A DNA stretch of 64,000 nt from the NCBI GenBank assembly GCA_947588355.1, contig CANPYI010000001.1, positions 141,771-205,770 on the forward strand. The letters run 5' to 3'. Shown piece by piece: positions 19,783 to 53,345 of this stretch; the stretch's first letter is position 1; the number at the start of each line of letters is the position of its first letter. The position numbers and the translations under genes are program-made. Source of the stretch: an uncultured Clostridia bacterium (lineage in GTDB: Bacteria; Bacillota; Clostridia; Christensenellales; UBA1242). The notes below the pieces were generated by a model, which ran no database searches, was not told the DNA's origin, and saw only the letters and a list, made by a program, of their open reading frames with translations.

Positions 19783-19810
19783 TTGACAAACACCCCCCCC
19801 GTGTTAAAAT
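19783..19810 (+). promoter_or_regulatory. Promoter with C8 tract in its spacer
   Basis: TTGACA (19783-19788) and TAAAAT (19805-19810) are separated by 16 nt that contain eight consecutive C. Length changes in the tract would change the spacer, so this looks like a slippage-type phase-variable promoter. At 16 nt it is expected to be active. Confidence 0.7.
19793..19800. repeat. Homopolymer C8
   Basis: Eight C in a row in otherwise A/T-rich intergenic DNA, inside the promoter spacer described above. Confidence 0.95.
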
Positions 19811-19841
19811 GTGCTTGAATGAAAAAAAGGAGATAAAAAAT

Positions 19842-20555
19842 ATGGCAACAATAGAAAATTATGTAAATTTGCCAAGCGAAGCAGATTGGGAAGAAATTAT
19901 GACAAAATTCCCTGCTTTTGCAAGTGCGTCACTTTCAGCAAAAGCCAAGAAAGACTTGGCATTTGAAAACAGTGATTACAAAGCAGGATACTACTTCACC
20001 CGCACTGCGTTGCCGGGCTCGTCCGACGGAGTGAAGTATGTAGGCACTGACGGCGACCTGCGCTGGACCCGCAGTTACAACTATGACACCGGGTTGCGCG
20101 TCGCTTTGCAAATAATCTACAATCCAGAATGCAACCTTGTCAAAGGTTGCAAAAAAGTTTCCAGAACTGCTGAAATTTGGGACAAGAAAAAAGGTGACAC
20201 AGTCAAAACAACAAGCAAAGCACCAGTTGTGACATTCGGAAAGAAAGACTATATTTGGCTGAACAAAGATGAATGTGAAAATGGCAAAGAAAAGTCAATG
20301 AGGCTTGTAAGTCTTGAACTTATTGCAAGAGCAAAACAATTTGACAAAGATGGAAATACAAATGACTACGGCAGTGAAGAGGCAAAAGAATTGAGACAGC
20401 AATGCCAATATAAAGCATTTGAATTTGCCACTGAGGAAGAAAAGGCAATGCTTGTTAAAGTGCGACTTTCCGAAGAAGACAAATATGAAAAAGCAGAGCC
20501 AATCTTGAAGACAAAACAAGAAAAAACTCATTCAGAAAAACCTAGAAATCGATAA
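19842..20555 (+). CDS. DUF6273-like protein with putative DGR-type variable segment
   Basis: 237 residues from ATG 19842 (AAGGAG nine bases upstream). The ORF-track start at 19809 lies inside the -10 box and cannot be used. Residues ~48-90 (GYYFTRTALPGSSDG... DGDLRWTRSYNYDTGLRVAL) resemble the C-terminal part of DUF6273/C-type-lectin-fold domains, usually of the form YWLRS...NxDGxL...GVRPAL. Residues ~120-215 (TFGKKDYIWLN... KSMRLVSLELIA... DYGSEEAKELR) resemble the beginning of such a domain, so the order looks permuted or the protein carries two modules. No signal peptide is evident. The DNA for residues ~52-90 is 62% G+C, unlike the flanks. Single-gene unit behind the C8 promoter and before a strong terminator. 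Function unknown; ligand-binding display is an inference. Confidence 0.6.
   Translation: MATIENYVNLPSEADWEEIMTKFPAFASASLSAKAKKDLAFENSDYKAGYYFTRTALPGSSDGVKYVGTDGDLRWTRSYNYDTGLRVALQIIYNPECNLVKGCKKVSRTAEIWDKKKGDTVKTTSKAPVVTFGKKDYIWLNKDECENGKEKSMRLVSLELIARAKQFDKDGNTNDYGSEEAKELRQQCQYKAFEFATEEEKAMLVKVRLSEEDKYEKAEPILKTKQEKTHSEKPRNR
19995..20110 (+). other. GC-rich cassette resembling a DGR variable repeat
   Basis: By hand count 72 of 116 bases are G or C, against about 16 of the next 50. Codons in the core are mostly NNC/NNT (TCC, GAC, GGC, CGC, ACC, AGT, TAC, AAC, TAT), which is what adenine-specific mutagenesis of AAC/AAT template codons gives. No reverse transcriptase or template repeat is seen in this window. 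Confidence 0.45.
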
Positions 20556-20585
20556 AAAACAGAGAGAAACCTCTGTTTTTTTTTT
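20556..20585 (+). terminator. Terminator of the VR-like gene
   Basis: AAAACAGAG / AGAAAC / CTCTGTTTT followed by a run of ten T, starting right after the stop codon. Confidence 0.9.
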
Positions 20586-20968: not shown

Positions 20969-22324
20969 TTATGCTTTAAAATCAAATCCCCGCTTTTTCA
21001 TTTCAGCCAAACAAAATTTGACACTTTGTTCAAGGCTTTGATTTGTGGTGTCAATAACGATGCTTTCCGGCAACTTTTTTATTGCACCATGTTCACGATG
21101 TATGTCCGCATAGTCTCTTTCACGCAATTCCTGCAAAACATCAGCAAACTCGACGTCATTTCCAAGATTTTTCTGTTGCTCGTAGCGTCTTTTTGCCCTC
21201 ACGTTCTCGTCGGCCGTGCAGAAAAACTTGAAATCAGCATTCGGCAAAACGTGACTTCCAATATCCCGCCCTTCCATAACAAGATTATTTTCGGCTGCAA
21301 AGTCACGTTGCAATTTCAGTACTTTTTCGCGTATGCATTCAAATGGAGAAACTTTTGCAGACAAACTGCTGGTATGTTCTGTTCGCAAGTTTTGAGTGTG
21401 GTCAATTCCATTCACAATCACGTGTTGGACATTGTCCACAAAATTTATGCTGACGTTTATTTGTTTTGCAAACTGTTTCATGCTTTTTTCGTTGATTTTT
21501 TTCTCATCAAGCCCCATATAATCATATGCACACGCAATGGCGCGATAAACAGCACCCGTGTCAAAAACTTTAAAATTCAAACGTTTTGCAAGTGTTTTTG
21601 CAATAGTACTTTTTCCGCTGCAAACAAAGCCATCAATAGTGATATTTGTCACTTTTTTGTGATTTAATTTTTCTTTAATAATTTGCAAACAAAAATCTGC
21701 TGTTTCTTGCAAATTCATATCGGAATTGTCAACAATAACGCTGTCATCACAAGGTTTAAGCGGTGCAACCGCACGAGTTGTGTCTCGAAGGTCGCGCTGT
21801 TGCAAATCTGCCAAAACATCAGACAATTTTGCACTTTTATCCTTAATTTTAACATCAGCAAATCGCCTTTTTGCTCGCACTTTTTCGTCTGCAGTAAGAA
21901 AAATCTTTACATCGGCATTTGGAATGACAACCGTTCCAATGTCGCGTCCTTCCATAACACAATCATATTCCGAAGCAAATTTTTTTGCAATTTCAAGATA
22001 TTTTTCACGCACCTTTGGAAAGACGGAAATTTTTGAAGCATTTTGGCTGACCTCTTCCGAGCGAATGAAAGGTGTTGCATCTTTGCCATTTACAAAAGTG
22101 TGCTGACCATCTTGCTGAAAATTGACTTCTATTTTGGCTTTTTTAATAAATTTTTCAGCATTCTTTTCTGTCAATTCGCCATATTTTGAATTCATAAACC
22201 CGTAAGCCATTGCTCTGAAAATTGCACCAGTGTCAAGAATTTTAAAGTTCAACTTTTCCGCAAGAATTTTTGCCAAAGTAGATTTCCCACTGCCTGTAAA
22301 TCCATCTATAGCGACTGCTTTCAT
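20969..22324 (-). CDS. cmk: Tandem cytidylate kinase (two Cmk domains in one chain)
   Basis: 451 residues, twice the usual ~220. Each half is a complete CMP/dCMP kinase: first copy has P-loop GFTGSGKST (8-16), DTGAIFRAMA, MEGRDIGTVVIPNAD and KRRF; second copy (from ~222) has GFVCSGKST, DTGAVYRAIA, MEGRDIGSHVLPNAD and KRRY. Cmk phosphorylates CMP and dCMP with ATP. The halves are clearly diverged, so this is an old duplication-fusion, not an assembly repeat. Both retain the nucleotide-binding and GRDIG motifs. The second P-loop has Cys where Gly/Thr is usual. Start after GGAGG. Upstream of tRNA-Pro on the same strand. Confidence 0.9.
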   Translation of the reverse strand: MKAVAIDGFTGSGKSTLAKILAEKLNFKILDTGAIFRAMAYGFMNSKYGELTEKNAEKFIKKAKIEVNFQQDGQHTFVNGKDATPFIRSEEVSQNASKISVFPKVREKYLEIAKKFASEYDCVMEGRDIGTVVIPNADVKIFLTADEKVRAKRRFADVKIKDKSAKLSDVLADLQQRDLRDTTRAVAPLKPCDDSVIVDNSDMNLQETADFCLQIIKEKLNHKKVTNITIDGFVCSGKSTIAKTLAKRLNFKVFDTGAVYRAIACAYDYMGLDEKKINEKSMKQFAKQINVSINFVDNVQHVIVNGIDHTQNLRTEHTSSLSAKVSPFECIREKVLKLQRDFAAENNLVMEGRDIGSHVLPNADFKFFCTADENVRAKRRYEQQKNLGNDVEFADVLQELRERDYADIHREHGAIKKLPESIVIDTTNQSLEQSVKFCLAEMKKRGFDFKA

Positions 22325-50982: not shown

Positions 50983-51840
50983 TTACACCTCGATTTTTCT
51001 GTATTTTTTGTCCACTGTAAACCAAAAAACAAGAAAGTTTGTCAGTGCGTAAACAAGCCCTATTGCCACAACAATAATATAGGCATAAGTACTTCCGTTT
51101 TCCATAATTTTTGGCAACAACAAACTGAAAACACCAAAAACACCTGCAATCAAAAGACCGATCATCAACATATATGTCACATTGATTTCTTCGGCATCGC
51201 CATTTGCCTTTGGCTTAAGGTTTGGATTGACAAGGTTGAGATTTATGCCATTGAAAACAAGCCCAAACACAAACAAAATTTGCGAAATTGCAAGCACAAC
51301 CATTTCAACAGCACTGACAAACTTCAACGCAATCAAAACAATCGAACTGACAAGCAAAGCACCAAGGCTGACAGCAACATTAAGAAAGCCCTTTATCAAA
51401 AGTTGTTTGCGATAGGAAACCGGCACCAATTTTGTTATGTAAAAATTTTTGCCTTCAATACTCAAAATTGTGGCAGCAAAAGAACCTATCATTGCCATAA
51501 ATACGGCAACAACAAGCATAGATGCCCCAAAATTGATTCCTTTGCCAATTTGAGCCTCGCCAACCATAGTGACCAGACGATTACAGAAAAACACCATTAC
51601 AGGTGTTGAAAGTGCAACGCCCAAATAAAAGTAAGAATAGGATTTTGTATGTAAAATTTCAAGAAAAGTGTGTCTGAAGATCGCTTTTCCGCTTGAATTG
51701 TCATCAATCTTTGAATTTCGCTTGCTGACTGTTCCGCCACCATCAAGTTCTTTAGTACGTATTTTTTGATAGACAAATTTTGCGACAAGCACGCCAAGTG
51801 CAATCAGAATTGCGCTTGCGCCAATTCCCCCCCCCCGCAC
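50983..51840 (-). CDS. ABC permease, C-terminal part (out of frame with N-terminal part)
   Basis: Second part of the permease described at 51752. From the G tract onward it reads GGGIGASAILIALGVLVAKFVYQKI, then six or so membrane helices ending KKYRKIEV. The ATG used by the ORF caller (MRGGGIGAS) lacks a ribosome binding site, so this is not likely an independent gene. With G9 in the tract it would be continuous with the upstream half as one 533-residue protein. Confidence 0.8.
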   Translation of the reverse strand: MRGGGIGASAILIALGVLVAKFVYQKIRTKELDGGGTVSKRNSKIDDNSSGKAIFRHTFLEILHTKSYSYFYLGVALSTPVMVFFCNRLVTMVGEAQIGKGINFGASMLVVAVFMAMIGSFAATILSIEGKNFYITKLVPVSYRKQLLIKGFLNVAVSLGALLVSSIVLIALKFVSAVEMVVLAISQILFVFGLVFNGINLNLVNPNLKPKANGDAEEINVTYMLMIGLLIAGVFGVFSLLLPKIMENGSTYAYIIVVAIGLVYALTNFLVFWFTVDKKYRKIEV

Positions 51841-52585
51841 CTATCCAAAAGTTTTCAAAGAAAATTATGTTTGCCAAATAATAGGCTGGATTGTACCATT
51901 TGTCGAGCCCGGTGAGCAATGACTGCCAAATTTCAAGTGTGCCTTGTTCCCAATTTCTGTGAATGAAAAACTGTGCAAGAACTGTGAGGATATAGTAGTA
52001 AAGTGCAAACAATCCTGCCAAAAGCAAGATGAAAACAATCAACTTTATTATGTTGTGTTTTTTAAGAAGCGAATTTATGTACATTATTGGAATTGCCAAA
52101 AAAACAGAAAGTCCAAACGGAATAAGCGGCATAAACAAAATTCCAAGGATAATGCCCAAAAAATATGTGAAAGTTATGCAATTCATCGCCCAGCCAAACA
52201 CCAACATGATTGGCAAAAGTAAGACTGCTGAATAAATCATAAGATCAATATAATTGAGGATCAAACAACTTACAAAAATCTTGAAAGTACTGAGCGGAAA
52301 CCTTGCAGTAATGTGCATATCACCAGGCCTGTACAGTCTGTTGATTTGCATTCCCGTTGCGGCAACTGTAAGTCCAATCACCAAAATAGTAAGAAAAAGC
52401 ACCGACAATCTTTTTGCGGAAACAACAATACTTGACTTTAAAACATAAGAAAGTCCCCAAACAAGTCCAAGCGCAATGACAACTGCCAAAAGTGCTGCCA
52501 CTGCAGTCATAATGGCATTTTTCTTGCTGTTGTTTCGGTTTAGACCCCACTTAAGTTTAAGTTGCAAACGGATGAAATCAAGCAT
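51752..52585 (-). CDS. ABC-2 type permease, N-terminal part, truncated by frameshift at G10
   Basis: 277 residues as sequenced; the last ~24 (GNWRKRNSDCTWRACRK...) are off-frame. The start (MLDFIRLQLKLKWGLN) follows GAGGTG and overlaps the ATPase stop by eight bases. Helices: ~25-50, 55-75, 95-125, 130-170, 180-210, as expected for the first half of a large integral permease of an ABC-2 type exporter, and partner of the ATPase at 52578. As sequenced the protein would be non-functional; a one-base contraction in the tract restores it. An assembly or sequencing error in the homopolymer is the main alternative. Confidence 0.85.
   Translation of the reverse strand: MLDFIRLQLKLKWGLNRNNSKKNAIMTAVAALLAVVIALGLVWGLSYVLKSSIVVSAKRLSVLFLTILVIGLTVAATGMQINRLYRPGDMHITARFPLSTFKIFVSCLILNYIDLMIYSAVLLLPIMLVFGWAMNCITFTYFLGIILGILFMPLIPFGLSVFLAIPIMYINSLLKKHNIIKLIVFILLLAGLFALYYYILTVLAQFFIHRNWEQGTLEIWQSLLTGLDKWYNPAYYLANIIFFENFWIGAGGGNWRKRNSDCTWRACRKICLSKNTY
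51827..51836. repeat. Homopolymer C10 (G10 on coding strand) inside the permease gene
   Basis: Ten consecutive C on the plus strand. Coding strand GC-G10-AATTGG. Ten G puts the downstream half out of frame; nine (or twelve) G reads AGGGIGAS and restores it. Contingency-locus type tract. Confidence 0.95.
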
Positions 52586-53320: not shown

Positions 53321-53345
53321 ATTATAGTGCGGGGGGGGTTGTCAA
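53321..53345 (-). promoter_or_regulatory. Promoter of the ABC/BIG2 operon with C8 in a 13-nt spacer
   Basis: Minus strand TTGACA (53345-53340), then 13 nt with eight C (53338-53331), then TATAAT (53326-53321). Both boxes are consensus but the spacing is 4 short of 17; adding 3-5 C would give a strong promoter. 53346-53488 upstream holds only A/T-rich DNA. Confidence 0.65.

Follow-up and report, generated by a model that had tools for sequence, protein, structure and literature searches.

Diversification by DGRs and phase variation by slippage are both well-known processes. The variable region (VR) of a DGR usually lies at the C-terminus of its target (PMC8144416), and in Thiohalocapsa PB-PSB1 DGR targets were described with no reverse transcriptase (RT) or template repeat (TR) at their locus, for which the explanations offered were action in trans, past activity, or strain variants that coexist and have the parts intact (PMC10907252). 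With regard to phase variation, the promoter of Neisseria meningitidis opc carries a poly-C tract, of which the C11 and C12 states differ in Opc expression (PMC3447861), and homopolymeric-tract contingency loci are described for Bordetella pertussis (PMC1891110). Our literature survey, which was incomplete and at the level of titles and abstracts, met no description of both processes on one gene. Here we report a gene that bears the signatures of both, and we regard it as probable that it belongs to a multicopy family of small proteins in which expression (by polyC slippage) as well as sequence (by a DGR) is variable.

The gene, which encodes the protein P0001, lies in a stretch of 64,000 nucleotides (referred to here as the window) from a gut bacterium with a tiny genome (928 kb in 15 contigs, in an assembly that is 95% complete). 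Its neighbours are both on the minus strand, a gene on the upstream side and tRNA-Pro on the other, and it forms a one-gene transcription unit with its own promoter at the front and, as judged by eye, a terminator-like hairpin that closes it (Table 1). The ATG at 19842, downstream of AAGGAG, is the likely start codon; another listed ATG, at 19809, was rejected as it falls within the -10 box. The original prediction placed a C8 homopolymer in a 16-nt promoter spacer, and this was confirmed, with the tract located between TTGACA and TAAAAT. The promoter shows 11/12 consensus matches, which is the top score of the region. Farther downstream, a minus-strand ORF of 451 amino acids (20969-22324) resembles two similar kinase-like halves in tandem.

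Table 1. Features of the P0001 locus, with positions numbered along the window
Feature	Position	Strand	Basis or remark
-35 hexamer TTGACA	19783..19788	+	promoter scan
Promoter spacer, 16 nt	19789..19804	+	
C8 homopolymer within the spacer, candidate slippage switch	19793..19800	+	
Extended -10 TGTTAAAAT, with upstream TG and hexamer TAAAAT (19805-19810)	19802..19810	+	
Shine-Dalgarno AAGGAG	19827..19832	+	direct reading; kept in paralogs
CDS of the variable protein P0001, 237 aa	19842..20555	+	family of at least 5 intact paralogs
Constant GC-rich segment at the 5' side of the cassette, TACTTCACCCGC...TCGTCC	19992..20024	+	conserved between paralogs
DGR-type VR, codons 62-83	20025..20090	+	paralog comparison, TR alignment
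Constant GGGTTGCGCGTCGCTTTGCA, candidate IMH-like 3' anchor	20091..20110	+	identical in all five paralogs
Terminator-like hairpin CAGAG...CTCTG, then T run	20560..20585	+	by eye; absent from scan listing

Inside the gene, the predicted G+C-rich cassette proved to be real (0.64 in 20000-20099 vs about 0.3-0.4 in the flanks), and so did its NNC/NNT codon bias, as 16 of the 22 VR codons of the window copy end in C or T. The P0001 family counts five intact copies in the genome and two pieces at contig ends. When the paralogs were compared, codon positions 1 and 2 of the VR were hypervariable, and the third positions were mostly a fixed C or T. Among four paralogs, positions 1 and 2 were variable at 33/44 sites in the VR vs 30/178 in the flank (p=4e-13); position 3 showed no excess in the VR (8/22 vs 28/89), and its share of all variable sites was 8/41 in the VR vs 28/58 in the flank (p=0.003). 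Not one of the 25 invariant VR columns of these four copies holds an A, compared to 54/123 in the 5' flank. Three single-copy relatives, L209 (genome G109), L208 (G125) and L206 (G135, with a C8 promoter), carry the same NNY-type VR. Across these three species, VR positions 1 and 2 were more variable than those of the flank (p=0.0025), and third positions were more conserved in the VR (9/22 variable vs 59/89, p=0.027). Immediately downstream of the VR, the 20-mer GGGTTGCGCGTCGCTTTGCA is GC-rich, lies inside the coding sequence and is identical in the five paralogs at third positions too. Its sub-motif GTCGCTTTGCA was also present in G001 and G022, and its position fits that of an IMH-like element, for which we consider it a candidate.

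Complete DGRs were found elsewhere in the genus, for which 112 genomes were searched. A DGR-type RT motif was detected in 13 of the best 20 RT loci, and an A-directed repeat scan identified TR/VR pairs at eight of these 13. The complete systems have an RT with IGNQTSQ/YMDD, an adjoining TR and a VR-bearing target downstream, with mismatches nearly all at A of the TR; close DGR-RT records came from an uncultured Eubacteriales (CATKYT010000009.1), uncultured Clostridia, uncultured Christensenella and Candidatus Caccovivens. The TR codons of these congeners (NNVNNVNNDGDRNNNNANKTN...) align one to one and gapless with the window VR, with valines and a G at the same places. Since these TRs come from other species, and are not the family's own, matching their adenines to the variable sites of the P0001 paralogs is an independent test. 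With three paralogs, 26/32 of the majority-A TR sites varied, compared to 6/52 of the other sites (Fisher p=1.2e-10); with four and five paralogs, p was 1.5e-8 and 2.4e-7. Shifted registers mostly gave p of 0.01-0.6, the strongest being +9 (2.5e-4 to 5e-3), and the codon-preserving shifts of +3 and -3 were weak. The pair of copies in G001 replicated the match (p=0.0012). As far as the sequence tells, the VR of the P0001 family is thus very probably of DGR origin. In this model, codons 62-83 would be the product of mutagenic retrohoming, for which a TR with many AAC/AAT codons would have served as the source and GGGTTGCGCGTCGCTTTGCA as the 3' anchor.

The part of the prediction that placed the VR in a DUF6273-type lectin-like domain finds support through homology, and not through a direct match. 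P0001 had no match in Pfam, DUF6273 included. On the other hand, a profile comparison related its residues 7-92 to DGR targets of the genus (E=4.7e-9), some of which match DUF6273 at 1e-9, and the VR would thereby fall in the VR-bearing half of a DUF6273/C-lectin-like domain. AlphaFold models of the single P0001 sequence (pLDDT 43) and of six DGR targets (pLDDT 55) were too poor to show a lectin fold, and Foldseek returned nothing usable for either. A circularly permuted DUF6273, suggested by a likeness of the C-terminal half to the other half of the domain, found no support, as the re-permuted sequence gave no DUF6273 match. In P0001, as in the complete DGRs of the genus, the VR is in the N-terminal half and the anchor is coding. 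Targets of the complete DGRs (L122 and L124, and similarly L121, L127 and L130) have an N-terminal VR and, by eye, no evident signal peptide. Two genus targets scanned in full carry AAA ATPase or BspA-type LRR domains after the N-terminal VR domain; such L122/L124-type proteins are reminiscent of intracellular sensors.

The fingerprint of adenine-directed retro-mutagenesis was recovered through the congeners' TRs, but a working DGR was not found in the genome itself. Neither an RVT_1 profile search nor tblastn with a congener DGR RT (E<=10) detected an RT in the 95%-complete assembly, and a BLAST search of the whole assembly for a TR matched only other VR copies. Similarly, only VR copies were recovered when the window and about 210 kb of other sequence, made up of flanks and small contigs, were scanned with an A-aware ungapped method, and when BLAST was run across the genus for a TR of this family. 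No fitting TR was present within about 10 kb of the orthologs in G001, G022, G109, G125 and G135; the last has a DGR RT, and no TR fitting its VR was found around that RT. A short match on contig C8 (L017) was taken as chance, as it lies inside a long coding frame. A TR with the constant arms of 33 nt and 20 nt should be visible to a DNA search, and the RVT_1 search, as used here, does find RTs elsewhere in the genus. The absence of RT and TR is strong, and not final, because the assembly, at 95% completeness, has breaks within the gene family. Most likely, both are missing from the MAG, sit on an element that this strain lacks, or have been lost. That DGR rewriting of the family is still active in the species is conceivable, at somewhat less than an even chance.

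Two explanations of this orphan state survive about equally, each of them tentative. According to the first, which keeps the original prediction whole, an active DGR resides in the species next to the polyC switch, and its RT and TR are absent only from the MAG, falling in the missing 5%, on an unbinned contig or on a prophage or plasmid. The incomplete, 15-contig assembly leaves room for this, and contigs C12 and C14 of the host genome (G000) start inside the gene family with a copy broken in or near the VR (L006 and L007), as two contigs of G001, C31 and C35, end in L030 and L027; such ends are as expected of repeats or strain-variable sequence. Also in its favour, VR third positions that stay conserved between species need a maintained template. 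Against it, the RVT_1 search found no RT in any of G000, G001, G017, G022 and G125, all of them 94% or more complete. Neither the P0001 protein nor its anchor had relatives in IMG/VR or in phage and plasmid collections, and no DGR RT of the genus type was confirmed in IMG/VR.

The second explanation, to which we give the same limited credence, is that a DGR once diversified the family and was then lost, so that the copies now vary by recombination and mutation and only the polyC switch is live. Besides the missing RT and TR, it agrees with the patchy distribution of RTs across the genus in the RVT_1 search and with the mosaic structure of the paralogs, in which L003 matches L005 in a downstream block and L002 in its 5' part. 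L005 and partly L004 also differ at non-A positions, because of which some family copies appear to be aged. However, the anchor is identical down to its third positions in five paralogs that otherwise differ, and VR third positions remain conserved across species; together these suggest that rewriting took place later than the divergence of the paralogs or species. A further scenario seems rather unlikely to us, namely a dispersed family of phase-switched, receptor-like genes on a chromosome that encodes neither RT nor TR, with VRs that continue to be renewed from outside, either through a mobile or shared DGR acting in trans or as ready-made cassettes passed between strains, and with slippage picking the expressed variant.

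Whichever way the VRs arose, the preferred reading also includes a switch at the promoter, and here the evidence extends beyond the window. PolyC spacers were found in three promoters of the family, namely those of the window copy L001 (C8, spacer of 16 nt), of L003 on contig C12 (C9, 17 nt) and of the piece on contig C14 (C8, 16 nt). The remaining paralogs, L002, L004 and L005, use ordinary 17-nt spacers, and the polyC promoters thus sit at the spacer length of the fixed promoters or one below it. The three polyC promoters have near-identical flanks, and their tract lengths are those of paralogs within one assembly. Family copies in relatives have polyC promoters too, with C9 and C9 in G001 and the C8 of G135. 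Because tract lengths differ among the paralogs, we infer that the tract is quite probably a slippage switch. In living cells, slippage would shift the distance between -35 and -10 around an optimum of 17 nt, as in Neisseria opc. On this view L003 with its C9 would have the optimal spacing, and the window copy with its C8 would lack one base relative to the fixed-promoter paralogs.

Promoters with polyC spacers form a recurrent class that includes this one, in support of the original prediction. The pattern TTGAC-polyC-TANNNT occurs at eight sites in the genome, vs none for the reversed pattern. PolyC promoters were present in 66/112 genomes of the genus (control, at most one match per genome; per-genome counts may include overlapping matches), and outside the genus they were rare, in 17/190 sampled genomes of the order with mostly one site each. 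The host genome has 14 C/G runs of at least 8, where a first-order Markov model of the window leads one to expect about 2.3; seven of the 14 are within polyC promoters and several others are in coding regions. The genes behind the other polyC promoters of the genome encode an ABC transporter ATPase, a lipoprotein-like protein carrying an Ig-like domain of bacterial type, an ankyrin-repeat protein and two unknowns. From their sequences, polyC promoters may be considered a genus-wide set of candidate contingency promoters.

Another such promoter is present in the window on the minus strand (53321-53345), where TTGACA and TATAAT are separated by 13 nt with a C8 and precede an ABC ATPase; with so short a spacer it is predicted to be weak or off. 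The operon that begins there includes an ABC-transporter permease-like gene split into two overlapping frames (50983-52585) at a C10 tract (51827-51836; G10 on the coding strand), which is a candidate translational contingency locus. Additional candidates are further C/G runs of 8-10 that lie within or next to coding frames (L092, L096, L098, L100, L108, L110 and L112).

It could be argued that the C tract is a fixed promoter element or a regulator site of this genus promoter class, and not a switch, as the 86 polyC promoters of the genus are mostly C9 (66/86) with spacers of 15-16 nt dominant. We consider this unlikely, since near-identical paralog promoters differ in their number of Cs, the genus tracts span C7 to C10 with varied flanks, and long C/G runs also occur in coding regions, one of them at the split permease gene. 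Least probable of all, and in our opinion very unlikely, is that no DGR was ever involved and that diversifying selection on a binding surface, with gene conversion among paralogs, made the codons hypervariable: the genome without a detected RT or TR and the mosaic paralogs would suit it, and agreement at the codon level with DGR targets, in which the same codons vary, could reflect selection on the same surface, but selection does not spare third positions as is seen in the VR, the TR-adenine match peaks in the exact register and is weak at +3/-3, VR third positions exceed those of the flank in conservation across three species, and the 20-mer is constant in five copies down to its third positions.

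The proposal that expression and sequence vary jointly was largely right about the nature of the two signatures, both of which are present; it went further than the data in having both act today. Measured against the refuting conditions that came with the proposal, its DGR part is half refuted, as RT and TR were not found, and half upheld, as the paralogs differ at template-A positions when judged by the TRs of congeners. If both act, cells could keep several scrambled proteins, with a presumed role in binding, and expose them stochastically. The orphan state allows one to ask whether VRs persist and renew without a resident reverse transcriptase, and the polyC promoters found across the genus can be taken directly as candidate contingency loci of these uncultured Clostridia with small genomes.

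Compared to known DGR targets, P0001 shares the NNY codons that are hypervariable at TR-adenine positions, the gapless cassette, a conserved GC-rich candidate 3' anchor and, by homology, a putative location of the VR in a DUF6273/C-lectin-type domain. It differs in its multicopy dispersed family with no RT or TR found in the genome, and in a VR that is in the N-terminal half with a coding anchor, where the usual VR is C-terminal (PMC8144416). Variable targets without a local RT/TR are shared with Thiohalocapsa PB-PSB1; however, that genome has other complete DGRs, whereas no DGR RT was found in the genome of P0001. With the Bordetella pertussis loci our locus has in common homopolymer tracts as candidate phase-variation sites, in another phylum. 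A close parallel for the promoter is Neisseria opc, where a poly-C is likewise inside the promoter and its length is proposed to set expression. Here, as read from genome sequences, polyC promoters are numerous within single genomes throughout a genus of Clostridia with small genomes, and some of them stand before VR genes.
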